From NCBI GenBank assembly GCA_024516035.1, contig CM044963.1, positions 19,274,703 through 19,338,702 on the forward strand: a stretch of DNA of 64,000 nucleotides, given 5' to 3'. This DNA is from Bactericera cockerelli (Eukaryota > Arthropoda > Insecta > Hemiptera > Triozidae). The position numbers were made by a program, and so were the translations under genes. The notes under the pieces are model-generated. The model searched no databases. It had not been told where the DNA came from and saw nothing but the letters and a program-made list of their open reading frames with translations. This document shows, piece after piece, positions 12,005-63,035 of this stretch. Every line of letters starts with the position of its first letter. Positions within the stretch are counted from its first letter, which is position 1.

Positions 12005-12170
12005 TTTCTGTTTATACTGATTAAAATAGAGAGGTTAGTTGATGGCATGGATGCTCAGAACTATTGCCTGCTGATGAGAGCAAATAAGCTCGAAACAGCT
12101 GTCCAGGTATGTTCTGATATTCATGTACATCTATTACAACTTCTCACTTTTCTGTTTATACTGATACTGA
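12005..12170 (+). ncRNA. Hammerhead ribozyme (type I) in a 144-bp repeat, copy 1
   Basis: Core at 12065-12109: stem I strand TGCCTG, CTGATGA, stem II GAGC/GCTC with loop AAATAA, GAAA, minimal stem III in the palindrome ACAGCTGT, cleavage triplet GTC (cut expected after 12103), then CAGGTA closing stem I with one G-U pair. An outer helix pairs CATGGATG (12046-12053) with sequence ending 12125. TTTCTGTTTATACTGAT occurs at 12005 and again 144 bases on at 12149, so the ribozyme lies in a tandem-type monomer, as in retrozymes and Penelope-like elements. Confidence 0.85.
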
Positions 12171-12204
12171 TACTGACCATGGATGTATTTGCGAACGGTC
12201 ATCA

Positions 12205-24915: not shown

Positions 24916-25349
24916 AAGAGATAAAGAAAGAATTTTAAAAAAATGAGTGTTTCAAAGCTTTTATTATTTCGTAGCCATAAAACATTTTTTTTTTTCGTAA
25001 GCTAAAGCTTCTAAGAAAACGCACTCAGGACCCTACTGAAACTTTGCGATCAAAAGAGAAGAAGATGATTATTTGTAAATAAATATATTTTAAGTATTTG
25101 TTGAAAAAAAGAAGAAAAATAATGTATACTTTTTTACATAGTCGTAGTTTTGTGCGTAGGTGTTCGGGCAGATTTTTCTGAAAGCTTTGTTTGACAGGTT
25201 GAACTTCTGAACGTAACACGTTACGAAGTGTTGAGCGGGGTTTCTTGACACTAAGCTATAGGAGCGTGGGGTAGGAACCAGATGAGAAAATAATAAGAGG
25301 TGGTCGGTCAAGGGTTGGAGATAGTAACCACTTCTCTATATCTAGTACA
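24916..25349. other. Unique AT-rich sequence
   Basis: Nothing recognised before the hammerhead repeat. Confidence 0.5.
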
Positions 25350-25522
25350 ACTTCTCACTTTTCTGTTTATACTGATTAAGATAGAGAGGTTAGTTGATGG
25401 CATGGATATTCAGAACTATTACCTGCTGATGAGAGCAAATAAGCTCGAAACAGCTGTCCAGGTATGTCCTAATATTCATGTACATCTATTAGAACTTCTC
25501 ACTTTTCTGTTTATACTGATAC
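25350..25522 (+). ncRNA. Hammerhead ribozyme (type I) in a 144-bp repeat, copy 2
   Basis: Core at 25420-25464: TACCTG, CTGATGA, GAGC-AAATAA-GCTC, GAAA, CAGCTG, TC, CAGGTA. Stem I pairs perfectly, and an outer helix CATGGATATT (25401-25410) pairs with AATATTCATG (25471-25480), leaving one G-U. Expected cleavage is after 25458. ACTTCTCACTTTTC occurs at 25350 and at 25494, again a 144-base period. Compared with copy 1, A to G in stem I gives G-U rather than a mismatch. Confidence 0.88.
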
Positions 25523-25599
25523 TGATATGCTACCCGATTGGGACTGAAAATAGTCCCCTTGTTCCAGCAGTTGTTTTGGAGGAATTTATATGTTATTTT

Positions 25600-26150: not shown

Positions 26151-27016
26151 AAATTGGTCATTCGGTCCAAATTAGAATCGCGAATTTTGGGGGGTAAATT
26201 GTTCCTTTTTTTTCTCGTTTTTCGGCTTTCCGCTCTACGTTTTTTTTTCGATTTAAATTCGCGTTCCGTTCAATTTCTGTTTAGGGAGGTGTGCCCGTTT
26301 TCGTTTTATGTATCTTTTTGTAAGTAAAACCGCTTTTTGTTGAACCGCCTTTGTGAAACCGCTTTCGTTAAACCGCATTCTTTAAATATTCCTTTTTTTT
26401 TGATAAACCGCTGTCGCACGATTTTAATCGCGATACTTTTCAGTTTTCGTTAAGTTTTATCGCCATCCCTAAAGTAATTCAGGCTTTTCCGCTTTAATTT
26501 TTTCTTTTAGTATAACCGCTAGATTAATTTAAATTTTTATGTTAATTGTAATTACTTAAGGTGGGTTTCATTGTGTTTCTTTCGTGAAAGTACATGTAAT
26601 TGCCATAAATTATTTTTTTCTATTAATTTCATCTAAAATTTATTAAAATAAGTGCATAGCTAAATAAAATAACCTACCTACTTACTTAACCATTTTATTT
26701 TCAATAGTTATAATCTGAAGTGATTTTAAGTTCAATTACCTAAGTATCATACATAATTATCAGTAAGTTCTAGCGTAGGTACTCTGGATGGACGCACGTA
26801 AGTCATTTGGGCATGCATGTTTGTGTCTTGTAGTAGTTCGTTTTTGATTTTTGCTATTTTACCTGCTCTTATTTGGCTTGATCTTTGATCGCCATAATTA
26901 TTATTTACCGCTTTCTTGTATTACCGCTGCAGAGGTTTATTACTCTCCGCTCAAATTAATTTTTTTTGGTTTATTAATTTTATACTTGCCATTTTTTTGC
27001 TATCCATCTATAAAAC
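26151..27016 (+). other. Untranslated leader of the BEL/Pao element
   Basis: No frame joins the Gag. Between about 26320 and 26420 the motif AAACCGC followed by a T run recurs several times, and CCGC words are frequent across the element. A stretch near 26240-26290 (T run, CGATTT, AATT, CGTT) resembles the 3' UTR near 32340-32375. Confidence 0.6.
26155..26168 (+). promoter_or_regulatory. Possible tRNA primer binding site
   Basis: TGGTCATTCGGTCC begins four bases after the 5' LTR. A TGG start, complementary to the tRNA CCA end, at this spacing is what a primer binding site should look like. I could not assign a tRNA by eye. Confidence 0.45.
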
Positions 27017-28837
27017 ATGGGTGTAGATGAAGATAGGTTAAACAGCCTTCTCTATCGTAGAGAGAAGATCTTTTCTCGCATGCAATCGCTGTTCGACTCC
27101 TCCTCAGACCTCTCAAGTAAGGAAAAGCTAGCATCTTTTCTAGTCAGGTACGATAAAATCGATGAGCATTATTCCGATTATGAGACTGTGCAATGTGATA
27201 TTCATGCTCAGTGTATGAAGATGTCAGATGAGACAACACAGAAAGCGTCAGCTCAACAGACAACTACTTTTGAGGATCTTTATTACAGTGTAAAGGCTAC
27301 AGCTAGGCTAAATAAATTTAAAACTTCTAGTGAGAAACTAGCTGAGCTGGCTATTACTAGTCAGGTACCCGCAGCCACGCCGCCGCCGGTTAGTGTGCCG
27401 ACGCCGCTGCACCTCGTTTACCCAAACTTGAAATTCCTGTGTTCAGTGGGGAACTGCATGAGTGGCCTAACTTTTACGCGTTGTTCAACTCAACGATACA
27501 TACCAATGGCTCTCTTTCCAATACAGAAAAGCTTCAATATTTAAAAACTTTTCTTACTGGTACCGCATTATCTCTTATCGAGTGTCTACAGCTTTCTCCC
27601 GCTAATTATGAGATAGCTTACAAAACCATTGTTGACAGGTATCAAAATAAGCGTAATTTAGGGGCTTTTTATCTTAACAAAATATTTTCTTTCCGCCAGA
27701 TAAATTCCAACTCTTTAGAAAATCTAAGAAAATTTTATGAATGTTTTCAAACCACATTCAACGCTTATACAGCTCTCGAACTGACTCAGCCTGCGGATTA
27801 TTTCGCAATGCATTTAGCGCTACGTGCTCTTGATGTAGATACACGTCAGCGTTTTGAATCTGAATTTGATGTAAGTGATATCCCGACCTTTGAACAGTTA
27901 ATGACTTTTGTGCAGAAGCAATGTCACATTCTAGAGATTAGCAGTGATGCAGATCGACAACCGCATGCTTCGGTGCAAAAGAAAATCCCCGCTTCGCACC
28001 AACCTAGTTCTTTCAGATCCACCCGCCATACTTTGGTTTCTACCGCTCAGCCGAACGTTCCGCCCGCTGCGTCTTCGTCTTGTCCTCATTGCAAGGGAGA
28101 TCACCGCTTGTTTAATTGTTCTTCGTTTCAGGCTGCTGAGGCGACTAAGCGATACGAAATCGTGAAGTCCCTCAGGAAATGTTTTAATTGTTTAGGGAAC
28201 CATATTTTATCTGACTGTAAGTCTAGGTCGCGATGTTCAAAGTGTCAGAGTGGATCCCATCATACATTACTTCATTTTGTAAAACCGCCCGCTATCCCGC
28301 CTGCAGGAATCGCTACTTCCTCCCGCTTTGCCGCTACCGCTACTTGTTACGCTAGTGAGAAGTCTACTGTCTTACTAGCTACCGCTCAGGCGCGGATTCA
28401 AGATTCATGTGGAAATTATCAATCTATTCGTCTAGTAATTGACCCTGGGTCTCAAATTAGTTGTATCAGTGCCAGCTTTGTTCAAAAACTTGGTTTAAAA
28501 TATACGTCATCCCGCACCAATATCTCAGGTATTGGTAATGAGCATACCCTGCAAAGTAAAGGTAATGTTTTTTGCAAGTTGATACCATCTCTGATTATGA
28601 CACCAGAAGTATCTACAGAAGCTGTTGTTCTGTCCAAAATTTCTTCGGACTTACCATCAGTGAACTTGCCATCTAGTGTGAAAGAGCAGTATTCGTCCAT
28701 TTCGCTAGCTGATTCTGATTTTCATAAATCTAGTAGAATAGATTTTCTGCTTGGAGCTGATTTATACCCACATATTTTGATTACCAAGGGTCCCACAATT
28801 ATACAGGGTGAACCAGTCGCGGTCAACACGATTTTTT
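27017..28837 (+). pseudogene. Gag and aspartic protease region of the BEL/Pao element (two frame breaks)
   Basis: The Gag starts at ATG 27017 (MGVDEDRLNSLL). The frame changes once between about 27370 and 27438 (one base lost), then runs as a long frame to 28872. In that frame come a retrotransposon Gag core of the DUF1759 type (PVFSGELHEWPNF region), then three cysteine motifs around 28081-28270: CPHCKGDH, CFNCLGNH and CSKCQSGSHH, typical of BEL/Pao zinc knuckles. The protease follows, with VIDPGSQISCIS near 28438; Asp-Pro-Gly-Ser replaces the common Asp-Ser-Gly, and this position is variable in Pao proteases. A six-T run at 28832-28837 carries one base too many, moving the reading frame just after the LLGAD motif region. 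Confidence 0.88.
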
Positions 28838-29800
28838 GGTTGGGTCCTCATGGGGAAGGTTCCGGTAGCTGATGAAGTGTCAACGCAGAACGCGTTGTTT
28901 GTTCGTTCTGAATCGCCTGAAAAATTTCTGGATGCCGTTATTAAGCGTTTCTGGGAGGTTGAAGAAGTTTCAGAGAGGAAGTTCGAGAATCCGGAAGACT
29001 TGAGATGTGAGAAGTACTATGAGGACACCACGAATCGTGAGCCCGATGGTTCTTATTCTGTTTGTTTGCCCTTTAAGGAGAGTGTTCCCGCTGCAGGGTC
29101 TACTAGAGACGCTGCTTTGAAACGGTTTTTTATCGTTAGAATCCCGCTTGCATAGACAACCGCAACTTTTTGCCGAGTATAAAAAATTTGTCCACGAATA
29201 TTTGGAGTTGGGTCATCTCAACGTAGCTCCGCAACCCTCTCCATACGTGATCCCGCACCACTGCGTCATTAAGGAATCCAGTTCCACTACTAAGCTGCGC
29301 GTGGTTTTTGACTCCTCGGTTAAGGATGATAAGGGTGTCTCGTTAAACGAATGCCTGATGATTGGACCAAAACTACAACGAGATATTCCAGACATCATTT
29401 TAAATTTCCGTTTGCATCGAGTGGCAGTCTGTGCTGATGTGAAGCAAATGTATCGGGGTATTTTGGTCGACAAAGAACATCGTAAATATCAGCATATTTT
29501 TTGGCGAGATTCTCCTGATGAACCACTTATCGAATTTGAATTGAACACGGTTACTTATGGGTTTTCTTGTTCGCCATATCTAGCGCAGAGAACCATGCGA
29601 CAACTTGTCGCAGATGAAAACCCTTCCCGCTTGCCTCTCAGGCAATCTTGTACGAAACGTACGTTGATGACGTCACGGCTGGGGCTGTGGACGTCAAGAC
29701 GGCGTTGTTATTGAGAGATGAGCTCATAGAGTTGTTGGGTAGAGCAAACTTCTCGTTGAGAAAATGGGCATCAAGCCATCCGCAGATCCTGACTGACCTG
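28838..29800 (+). pseudogene. Reverse transcriptase region of the BEL/Pao element (two frame breaks)
   Basis: Continues from the protease with GWVLMGK, a Pao hallmark linker. A second six-T run, 29126-29131, again has one base too many. RT motifs follow: the LHRQPQLFAEYKKF entry segment, LRVVFDSS, ADVKQMYRGI, GFSCSPYLAQ, then a lost base near 29615-29630 and the catalytic YVDD at 29660-29671 (YVDDVTAGA). The catalytic aspartates are intact. It would copy the element RNA to DNA in cytoplasmic particles. Confidence 0.9.
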
Positions 29801-30700
29801 CCTAAGGATCATGTGCAGGCCGCCGTGGGCTTCTCGCCTGAAGGAGATGGTGCGTTGAAGGTGCTGGGGTTGGAGTGGAAACCTGACTTAGATGTTTTGC
29901 TTTATTCAATAGCTCCCCCTATTATTAATGAGCAGCACACAAAACGGTCCATCTTATCTACAATCGCACGTCTCTTCGATCCGCTAGGTTGGTTGTCTTC
30001 CGCTATTTTTTTCGCTAAATGTATAATTCAACGCACTTGGTTAGCAGGCAGTGACTGGAGTGAACCGCTCCCTGAAGACATTACCGCCGACTGGAAAAAA
30101 TTTCTTTTCCAGATCGAATCCTTATCTGAAGTTAGAATTCCCCGCTTTTGTAATATTGAACCAAATGCAGAATACTCCATCTTCGGCTTTTGTGATGCCT
30201 CTGAAAAAGGATACGCCGCTGTATTGTATCTCCGCTCTGCGTTACATGAAGATATTCGTATTTCGCTTTTGATAGCCAAGAGTCGAGTAGCGCCGCTAAA
30301 ATCCGCAACAATTCCTCGATTGGAACTTAATGGCTGCTGTTTTGCTTTCACGTCTGCTTGTTTCGATTCAGGATATTGTGAATAAATTAAATGTCAAGGA
30401 GATCTTTCTCTTTAGTGACTCGACAGTTGTTCTTGGTTGGTTACGAACTTCGCCGCATCGTTTAAAAATATTTGTAGCAAACCGCGTTGTGGAAATATTA
30501 GATAACACTTCTCCCTCCTCTTGGAGGCATATTTCTACTCATGAAAATCCAGCGGATTGTGCCTCGAGAGGGTTATACCCTCAAGATTTAGTTAGCCATC
30601 CTTTGTGGTGGACGGGGCCTTCATTCATGGCTGAACCGCGCGACACTTGGTTGATCGACAGTGTCATTGTCCCCGATGAAAATCTACCGGAGCTGAAGTC
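29801..30700 (+). pseudogene. RT connection and RNase H region of the BEL/Pao element
   Basis: KWASSHPQIL and the TIARLFDPLGWLSS segment are characteristic of the Pao RT thumb/connection. RNase H follows: FCDASEKGYAAVLY (30186-30227, first Asp), then PRLEL, where an extra A at about 30327 shifts frame, MAAVLLSRLL, FLFSDSTVVLGWL (Asp) and ENPADCASRG. All acidic residues I expect are present. Confidence 0.88.
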
Positions 30701-32245
30701 GACAGTCTTAATTGCCGCCTCGGAAAACTCAAGAAATTTATTTTTTGATGTCATAGAGAAGTTTTCGTCGTTAGTACGAGTTCAGCGCGTCATAGGTTTT
30801 GTACTTCGCTTTGTTAATAATCTTCGCTGTGATTCCTCAACTCGCAAGTCAGGGCCGCTAGAAATTGAAGAGATGAACAGAGCCATGAATCTGTGCATTC
30901 GTGTGGTTCAGAAGGCTGAATATGAAGTCGTAGTGCAAAAATTAAAGGATGATCCGCAGTTGAAACATTATTTGAGACGATTGTCACCCTTTATCGATGA
31001 AAACCAGCTTGTCAGGGTGGGCGGTCGGATTAAAAATTCGGATCTGCATTATTCAGCAAAATATCCGCTTTTATTACCGAAATGTAGTCACTTATCAAGA
31101 TTGATTGTCAAACACTATCATCTCCAGACGCTACATGGAGGACCACTCATTGTTCAGTCTATTATTCAGCAACAATATTGGATTATATCTCTTCGTAGTC
31201 TTGTTAGACAATGTATATTTAAATGTTTGATTTGCTATAAACTCAAAGCAAAATCTTTAACCCCGCCTATGAGTGATTTACCCGCCGTTCGATTTGAACA
31301 AGTTCGAGCGTTTCTTAATGTTTTTGTTGACTATGCTGGCTTTTTTGTCTTGAAAGAAAGCACTCGGAGAAACGCGAGAACCTACAAGGGATACCTCGCA
31401 ATTTTTATATTATGTCTACCAAGGCCATGCATCTCGAAGTTGTTACAGATTTATCTACTCCCGCGTTCTTGGCTGCATTGGATCGATTTACATCTCGCCG
31501 TGGATTAGCTGCTAAAATCTACAGTGATAATGGTACGAACTTTGTAGGTGCAGCTCGCCATCTTAAAGAAGTGTACACTCTGTTGTGCAACTCTGAGGAG
31601 GTGATCAGCAATCATCTTACAAAGAGCAAAATTCGTTGGTATTTTAATCCTCCAAACGCTCCCAACTTTTCTGGTTTAGTTGAGCGAGCGGTCAAAAGTT
31701 GTAAACACCACATCAAACGCGTCATCGGAGAGCAATCCTTGACGTATGAAGAGTTTTCAACTTTAATGTGCCGCATTGAAGCGGTACTCAACTCGCGTCC
31801 ACTTTGTGGAGTCCCTAGTTCGGATCCCAATGATGGTAATGATTTTCTTTCCCCCGCACATTTCCTCATTGGCTCGACAATGTTGTCTGCTCCTGAAGAG
31901 AACTTGACTTCTCGACCCATGAATCGACTTAATCGTTGGCAGTTGATTCGTCAGGCTGTGCAGTCATTCTGGAAGCGGTGGTCAATCGAGTATTTACATA
32001 CTCTGATCCCTCGTCCTAAGTGGAACACAGAAGATAGAGAGCTAAATGTAGGAGAAGTAGTTTTTGTTCAATCTACTATCAATCAGATGAATCCTTTGAG
32101 TTGGCCTATTGGTAGAATTGAACAGTTGATTGCGGGAAAAGATGGGGTAACACGCGTCGCTAAGGTAAGGGTCGCGAATACAATAGCTACAAGACCGCTT
32201 ACAAAGTTAGTCCCACTGCCTTTGGCGACCCATCCAGATACGTAG
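30701..32245 (+). pseudogene. Integrase region of the BEL/Pao element (one frame break)
   Basis: The zinc-binding domain lies about 31100-31250 with HYHLQTLHGG and CLICYKLKA (H-H-C-C). The catalytic core has the first Asp in FVDYAGFF (about 31325), the second in SDNGTNF (about 31530) and the Glu in GLVERAVKSCK (about 31680): a complete DDE set. The frame changes at about 31400-31411, in an AT-rich run just before MSTKAMHLE. The C-terminal part (LSPAHFLIG, PLSWPIGRIEQL) ends at TAG 32243-32245. Confidence 0.9.
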
Positions 32246-37495: not shown

Positions 37496-37845
37496 TCAGT
37501 CCCAGTTAGTCCCACTACTCAAGCTGATTAGTCCCTAATTGGGCAGTATAAATAAAGCATCATCATTATTATTATTATTCAGTCGGTGCCTTGACAATCA
37601 ATGTACGGATGGACCTGCCACTGGTTTAACGGATCGCCACTGCTCCAAGAGGTTTAAAAATTACATGTTCAAACTTTCATTGTAACCTCGAAACTAAAAT
37701 CCACAAATGCTGCATGTTTTTTTGCATAATTAAAAAGTTTTCCCTCTCCCGCTTTCGTATATTTGCAATTACGTTCCGAACAACAGCTTTCGAACTACAC
37801 TTGCCGGCAGACATTTTCACCTAACTTGCTCATTTTCCATATCAG

Positions 37846-38150
37846 TCAAAACAGAAAAGTGAGAAGTTGAACTTGATGAACATCAGAGCATACCTTCTGT
37901 CCCGGTAGCTCCGTGGTAAAGGCGGCACTCTGTGAATCCAGAGATTCCAGAGGTCGTGGGTTCGAAACCCAGCTGAGACATGACAATTTATCCTAGCATT
38001 TGGGATTTTTATCACATATTAATCTACGTCTTGGGCTTACTGCTCGAATAATGGGACTTGATAGTCCTAATCGGGAGGTATAATATCATATAAGGCGATA
38101 TTATTATTACCTTGTCAGCTGTTATGGCTCTCTACGGCAGTAGAATGTCT
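37846..38150 (-). repeat. Decayed third copy of the hammerhead repeat, split by a SINE
   Basis: On the minus strand 37848-37896 carries the repeat downstream of the cleavage site (GGTATG..., AACTTCTCACTTTTCTG). Sequence resumes at 38108 with an AACAGCTGAC stem III relative and a corrupted core (CCGTAGAG in place of CTGATGAG). The two halves are separated by the tRNA-derived SINE at 37899-38107, with TACCTT on both sides. Confidence 0.65.
37899..38107 (+). mobile_element. tRNA-derived SINE, family D
   Basis: The head begins GTCCCGGTAGCTC (A box) with GTTCGAAACCC (B box). Its GTCCCGG start would pair with a CCGGGAC 3' side, as in a tRNA acceptor stem. The tail ends in an ATT-rich run. It interrupts the hammerhead repeat. 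Confidence 0.8.
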
Positions 38151-38156
38151 GAATAC

Positions 38157-38300
38157 CATTTAGTTAGGACATATGTATATATATATATTTTTTTTTTTCT
38201 TGATTATATTATTATTATTATTGTCATTTTTATTTTTACTTTTTCCCATTATTTGTCTGTATATATGTTCTACTAATAAAGTGTTTCTAAAAAAATAAAA
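38157..38300 (+). repeat. Family F 3' part
   Basis: TTAGTTAGGACATATGTATA ... CTACTAATAAAGTGTTTC. Confidence 0.62.
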
Positions 38301-62781: not shown

Positions 62782-63035
62782 GGGTTTAACGTCGCTTTCA
62801 ACTGCCATGGTCATATCACGACGGGGGTTTTACCCTCCATTCGCAGGAAACTCACAAACCTGCTACTCACATTGACCTCACCCAGCCTGAGTGGGGCCGG
62901 GAAAAGCCAGCGTCACGAGAATTAGAATTTGAATGGTCACCCATCCAAGTCTTAACCTCGCTGGATGTCGCTTAACTTCGGTGTTCTGAAGGGAACCGGT
63001 GTATTCAACATGCCATCGACGCTGGCTACTTTTTT
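62741..63035 (-). mobile_element. 5S rRNA-derived SINE with long poly(A)
   Basis: Minus-strand copy. The plus strand shows a T run of about 30 (62748-62780), then GGGGTTTAACGTCGC, the core, and 5S-like AACTTCGGTGTTC ... GTATTCAACATGCC at the right. The long homogeneous tail suggests a recent insertion. Confidence 0.87.

Follow-up and report, generated by a model that had tools for sequence, protein, structure and literature searches.

What kind of element carries a hammerhead ribozyme (HHR) inside a repeat with a 144-nt period, and how is such a unit copied? The question is raised by the second of three related copies in the window, the whole 64,000-nucleotide stretch of Bactericera cockerelli DNA analyzed here. 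The reading that we consider rather likely is a non-autonomous, non-LTR retrozyme whose dimeric transcripts would be cleaved by the HHR to give a 144-nt RNA circle, with reverse transcription started at a loop, continued for one to two turns, and followed by integration.

The ribozyme and the helix that encloses it are laid out as follows.

25420–25464, + strand: type I hammerhead ribozyme (Rfam RF00163, 32.5 bits, E 2.7e-6); core at 25426–25458; cleavage expected after 25458
25450–25457, + strand: stem III palindrome ACAGCTGT, the predicted 8-bp intermolecular stem III of a dimer
25401–25410, + strand: 5′ arm of the outer rod helix, CATGGATATT, from letters and fold
25471–25480, + strand: 3′ arm of the outer rod helix, AATATTCATG, from letters and fold

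The initial annotation held that every position of the hammerhead core is present, and this is borne out letter by letter: CTGATGA (25426–25432), GAAA (25447–25450), and a cleavable GTC ending at 25458 are joined by a 6-bp stem I (TACCTG, 25420–25425, with CAGGTA, 25459–25464), a 4-bp stem II (GAGC, 25433–25436, with GCTC, 25443–25446), and an outer helix of 10 bp that includes one G·U pair. The covariance search that it proposed gave a divided answer: RF00163 (Hammerhead_1) matches copy 2 at the place expected, but the score, obtained in 501 bases, lies under the gathering cutoff of 34, and a gathering-level Rfam scan of the 64-kb window listed no hammerhead. Relatives of the window family at C4:34330139 (43.0 bits) and C2:40069181 (42.3 bits) exceed that cutoff. 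Across the assembly (565 Mb, 1,032 contigs), the exact core CTGATGA-N14-GAAACAGCTGTC occurs 1,354 times on one strand and 1,360 on the other (2,714 in all), against 0 + 0 for the reversed control; the hammerhead is therefore not a chance arrangement of letters. An exact scan of IMG/VR for the HHR core returned 0 matches.

Three copies of the unit, which is 144 nt long and 36% GC, lie in the window.

25337–25526, + strand: retrozyme copy 2, composed of 40 nt of a second turn (25337–25376), one full 144-nt unit (25377–25520), and the slip tail ACTGAT (25521–25526)
25521–25526, + strand: 3′ slip tail ACTGAT of copy 2, of a kind carried by 62 of 67 sampled termini
25370–25379, + strand: turn-to-turn junction TACTGATTAA inside copy 2; in the unit RNA, the apical loop of the predicted rod and the putative start of reverse transcription
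12005–12176, + strand: retrozyme copy 1, 1.12 turns, HHR intact
37841–38159, − strand, limits approximate: decayed copy 3, HHR core broken, interrupted by a tRNA-SINE at about 37897–38108

The 144-nt period is real (25337–25383 against 25481–25527, 47 nt at 87%), but what had been described as a dimer-like repeat is a 1.28-turn product with a single HHR and not two full units. The view of the family as a small non-coding element of the retrozyme or Penelope-like kind likewise survives in part: By sequence and fold it is retrozyme-like, but no Penelope-like link was found, and copy 2, at 190 nt, is too short to encode a reverse transcriptase. Copies 1 and 2 differ from copy L009 at four and five positions over the unit. 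The two parts of copy 3 align to unit positions 25–87 and 83–154 and flank the tRNA-SINE, which is bordered on each side by AGGTA; the part past the SINE (38109–38159) scores 17.5, little more than the highest value among 200 shuffles (16.5), and is marginal alone. We rejected the idea that the retrozyme shares its tail with this SINE, because the SINE is an independent family (3,004 first-look candidates versus 978 for the retrozyme) and sits inside an old, decayed retrozyme copy (37841–37895).

Other elements accompany these copies. Pieces of a BEL/Pao element at 27014–32245 (+ strand, several frames) match Pfam DUF1759, Peptidase_A17, Integrase_H2C2, and DUF5641; of seven window ORFs scanned, all four with Pfam matches belong to this element (about 27.0–32.2 kb), and among the 21 relatives listed for one piece of it, the 13 that carry a name are all insect proteins. 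A divergent 5S rRNA-like sequence (65 bits) at 62905–63026 (− strand) is perhaps part of a 5S-derived SINE, which is a guess.

To read the copy ends beyond the window, we combined 40 places located with the window copy (a 191-nt query) and new places from a 69-nt tail query starting exactly at cut +1. The resulting 70 aligned copies comprise places from both queries plus window copy 1, L076, L121, and L129; decayed, array, or weak places were omitted (L049, L052, L079, L081, L110, L122; L079 could be aligned no further than unit position 134). Removing L097, an array piece, and L112 and L114, whose flanks are the same as those of L111 and L113, leaves a set of 67. The tail search scored 40 of 691 first-look candidates, so copy lengths may be biased; 35 of the 40 scored places were counted, the others being L097, L112, L114, and two places in array L110.

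All 70 aligned copies end within 3 nt of one unit position, TTTATACTGA(T), most of them having been picked by queries that contain that end. Copies ending elsewhere were selected against, since both queries include the common 3′ end; the four copies found otherwise (window copy 1, L076, L129, and L121) share it, L121 with unit-like letters behind. Extra slip units follow the end in 62 of 67 termini and read CTGA, TACTGA, TATACTGA, TTATACTGA, or TTTATACTGA, each a suffix of TTTATACTGA; judged from their letters, they are the last 4–10 nt copied repeatedly. Where the same place lies inside a copy, 56 of 65 contexts read TATACTGATTAAA within two letters and none of the 65 has the 6-nt slip unit; seven of the nine remaining contexts are copies whose 5′ end falls at that spot.

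Query selection does not affect exact counts over the genome. In these, the internal junction CTTTTCTGTTTATACTGATTAAAA is represented 590 + 551 = 1,141 times and the commonest terminus, CTTTTCTGTTTATACTGATACTGA, 337 + 320 = 657 times, with 0 in the control for each; 53 of 67 sampled termini have the latter form, which corresponds to ~1.4 junctions per terminus, arrays adding junctions without termini. On these counts, copying beyond one turn is common. Of 100 exact cores, 16 have an exact junction upstream (corrected fraction ~0.57, crude range 0.29–1.15) and 10 have an exact common terminus downstream; after correction, the latter share rises to between about one-third and one-half, which implies that some copies have other or decayed ends. 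Target-primed reverse transcription leaves a fixed, slipped 3′ end together with variable 5′ ends. The fixed apical-loop end with its slip tail appears new for this class of element and suggests the site at which reverse transcription starts.

Copy lengths extend this picture to the 5′ side. The 35 independent tail-query copies span 74–295 nt: five are shorter than 133 nt, six fall at 133–155 nt, 16 at 156–200 nt, and eight exceed 200 nt. In terms of turns, 24 of the 35 run beyond one full turn, six deviate from one turn by no more than 11 nt, and five are shorter; the 62-nt run-off length from cut to loop is found in none of the 35. Of 60 exact termini on contig C1, 12 have an exact junction 117–204 nt upstream (nine at 144–148), and 51 of 60 copies contain some stretch of the unit in duplicate. 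The fullest 9-nt window of 5′ ends, unit positions 102–110 with 19 copies, probably reflects query selection, because the 191-nt query begins there.

Overlapping turns of one copy share their variants. Variants common to both turns occupy 31 cells, versus a mean of 3.7 and a maximum of 9 in controls that pair turns of different copies, whereas discordant cells number 51 against a control mean of 101 and minimum of 87. For the most part, then, a single template sequence gave rise to both turns. The shared variants would be simply accounted for by a circle read twice; a linear multimer of identical units could also produce them.

The alternative that survives best keeps the retrozyme and dispenses with the circle: A linear template longer than one unit, either intact or cleaved at a single HHR, would be reverse transcribed from ACTGAT into the preceding unit. 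Neighboring units in such a template are alike, so the shared variants fit it. Suitable sources exist among two-HHR copies (7 of 67 sampled) and arrays, namely L052 and a locus with three junctions in succession at C1:43079366–43079648. In addition, 7 of 67 copies (two of the seven in the tail set) have their 5′ end around the cut in the second turn, at unit positions 78–86, the first letter of L020 being precisely cut +1; ends of this kind would be expected from a cleaved linear dimer. Yet two-HHR sources are few: The first 100 listed cores, all on C1, are dispersed and include three pairs 130–230 nt apart. The six copies of 35 that lie within 11 nt of one turn also tell against it, because on a circle the start of the cDNA itself explains this length, whereas a linear multimer does not. 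We judge a linear template unlikely, though a serious contender.

A second alternative makes the unit an ordinary SINE-like linear element, transcribed from TAAAATAG to ACTGAT, with the HHR a passenger. Four copies (L095, L096, L102, L104) do have their 5′ end close to the beginning of the unit, but many others pass that point into another turn, as the 1,141 exact internal junctions attest. A passenger ribozyme also sits poorly with where variation is least: The 14 catalytic positions vary at 0.0099 versus 0.0286 in the unit outside the HHR, and the common catalytic letters stand in 54 of 63 complete cores, although the deficit of recurrent variants within the HHR is not significant (2 of 12 positions, P = 0.21). 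We find this alternative highly improbable. The least credible of all, spread of a satellite at the DNA level by unequal exchange or excised DNA circles rather than through RNA, could draw on partial-unit arrays (62–65-nt units in L052, repeats in L110) and on the near absence of long target-site duplications, but is opposed by copies dispersed over both strands (1,354/1,360) with three pairs in 100 cores, and by the single 3′ end and slip tail common to sampled copies, in which the predicted random end points on both sides were not seen.

The arrays are of interest in their own right. L052 (1742–3217) and L110 are satellite-like arrays built from retrozyme pieces, L110 repeating a flanking piece together with a retrozyme piece. 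We rejected the 62–65-nt array in L052 as proof of cleavage in vivo: Its junction, ACTGATATCCAGG, is two letters off the cut site, and array growth at the DNA level suffices.

Predicted folds connect the copy ends to the retrozyme reading. Folded as a circle, the unit is predicted to form a rod of −42.6 kcal/mol (z −5.2), a value that none of 200 shuffles equaled. One end of the rod carries the hammerhead, and the opposite end is the loop UACUGAUUAA, where the aligned copies end; the window copy folded alone gives z −4.1. The HHR monomer has an inactive best predicted fold (−15.1; active fold, −7.8), and two HHRs together are predicted to fold best (−34.1) as a double hammerhead whose stem III spans 8 bp, in agreement with the earlier description of stem III as only a palindrome, a design suited to dimers. 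Sequence change at rod pairs keeps pairing in 54 cells and breaks it in 60, all one-sided and with no double changes, and recurrent changes keep five and break three; by this measure, support for the rod is weak.

The retrozyme account can then be set out as a series of steps. Transcripts with at least two HHRs would cleave through dimer pairing at the ACAGCTGT palindrome, as the folds predict. The 144-nt monomer would be ligated, by analogy with published retrozymes, into a circle predicted to fold as a rod, and this circle would survive because a lone monomer is predicted to prefer the inactive HHR fold. A reverse transcriptase of LINE or Penelope-like element (PLE) type, presumably target-primed, would begin at the apical loop ACUGAU, the start being read from the copies. 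Slippage at the loop, likewise read from the copies, would leave the ACTGAT tail. The template, putatively circular, would be rounded once and often partly twice, as lengths and shared variants indicate, and insertion of the cDNA would duplicate the target site little or not at all. More specifically, and with some hesitation since we lean slightly toward doubting it in full, we propose that a viroid-like 144-nt circle is the template of target-primed rolling-circle reverse transcription from the apical loop, that the loop acts as the recognition and priming tag toward a host LINE or PLE enzyme, and that the dimer-only ribozyme keeps finished circles uncut.

Integration sites were read from flank repeats and empty sites. 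Exact flank repeats of at least 11 nt occur in 5 of 67 copies versus 0.2% of cross-paired controls. Three of these, L017, L102, and L117, were rejected as target-site duplications, their matched words being found two, nine, and three times upstream as local tandem repeats; L038 (19 nt) and L041 (13 nt) are left. Long duplications, nearly absent once tandem-repeat cases are removed, were accordingly withdrawn as general evidence. When flank repeats were scored, 7 of 41 copies came out above every control, of which some probably did so by chance. Five empty sites read by eye suggest duplications of 0–4 bp, in a LINE frame (L028), a SINE (L032), a palindromic repeat (L101), and tandem repeats (L102 and L117). 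For comparison, animal non-LTR retrozymes have target duplications of more than 4 bp where they have any. Short or missing duplications do not separate LINE from Penelope-like enzymes.

Candidate partners are plentiful: The reverse transcriptase domain PF00078 is found above cutoff at at least 150 places among 10,614 candidates. No owner of the tail ACTGATACTGA outside the family appeared, under a loose criterion, in ~0.3 Mb of fetched DNA plus the window, a small fraction of the genome, and the ACTGAT tail was not seen by eye on the LINE carrying L028 or the LINE in L004. Two insertions have informative surroundings. L028 (C4:10537700–10539900) lies antisense in the frame of a LINE that is RTE-like by eye, with a readable insertion site, and the copy in L019 (C7:22681600–22683800) starts shortly past what looks by eye like an exon and GT splice site of a WD-repeat gene.

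Hammerheads outside the window family were also encountered. A second family (L118, L120, L124, L126, and L128, on C1, C10, C5, C1, and C10, respectively, 406–407 bp each) has the core TATGCCTAACTGATGAGTTC..GAACGAAACGATCGTCTTAGGC, with slight variation in L120 and L128. In L118 and L124, its HHR lies directly 3′ of tRNA-like sequence that includes a B-box-like GGTTCAAAYCC, and an A-box-like part can be made out by eye in L118; the family may be a tRNA-SINE carrying a hammerhead. By eye, L124 also appears to have an inverted retrozyme tail upstream. A tandem array at L119 (C7:17234600–17235100; matches from C7:17218609 to 17234923) places hammerheads every 107–124 bp, three in 501 bp, and its core resembles that of the second family, not the window family. 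A third type with a very short stem III (GAAACTAGTC) occurs at L125 (C2:8889124), C3:19192736, C7:19699051, and C7:37424263, at 40.4 bits each, and may belong to a Penelope-like element.

Among known hammerhead systems, the window family is, on sequence features, best filed as an animal-type non-LTR retrozyme with an unusually short unit. The comparisons that follow draw on parts of the cited papers. Animal non-LTR retrozymes are described as having self-cleaved linear and circular RNAs and dimer-acting HHRs, with reverse transcription of the circles proposed and the enzyme left between LINEs and PLEs, PLEs being favored (PMC7229834, Cervera & de la Pena 2020); the sizes given there are ~170–400 nt for RNAs, 150–450 bp for repeats, and 150 to >1,000 nt for circles. 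The window family resembles them in its type I HHR, short low-GC repeats, dimers or multimers, non-coding character, and absence of an LTR, and it resembles axolotl HHR_Amex1 in a weak stem III whose palindromic loop works as a dimer, here by predicted fold (PMC7229834). It departs from the animal retrozymes reported in the parts drawn on in its 144-nt unit and in the 1–2-turn copies with one 3′ end that prevail in our sample (PMC7229834). The animal repeats treated in the relevant part of PMC7761336 are said to have no conserved motif that helps deduce the donor retrotransposon; here, in contrast, the fixed apical-loop end and slip tail form such a conserved motif.

Resemblance to other systems is partial. 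The newt and salamander HHR satellite (~330 bp) has a similarly weak stem III and dimer-acting HHR, but a larger unit and a different host and sequence (as summarized in PMC7229834). Penelope-like elements with minimal HHRs likewise have type I HHRs in pairs, whereas the retrozyme here has no reverse transcriptase or pseudo-LTR and does have an extended stem I and an outer helix (PMC7761336, in part). For plant LTR retrozymes, HHR-made RNA circles are proposed retrotransposition intermediates, a role that putative circles would play here (portions of PMC4918200, PMC7761336, and PMC7229834); those elements have type III HHRs, LTRs, a primer-binding site, and 4-bp target duplications, whereas the HHR here is type I and no LTR was seen (same parts of PMC7761336 and PMC7229834). 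Titles and abstract openings of the openly licensed literature name neither a 144-nt nor a psyllid retrozyme.

The putative circle would be a very small natural ribozyme RNA, equipped with a predicted dimer switch, and the pattern of copy ends makes reverse transcription from such a circle directly testable with candidate LINE or PLE enzymes.
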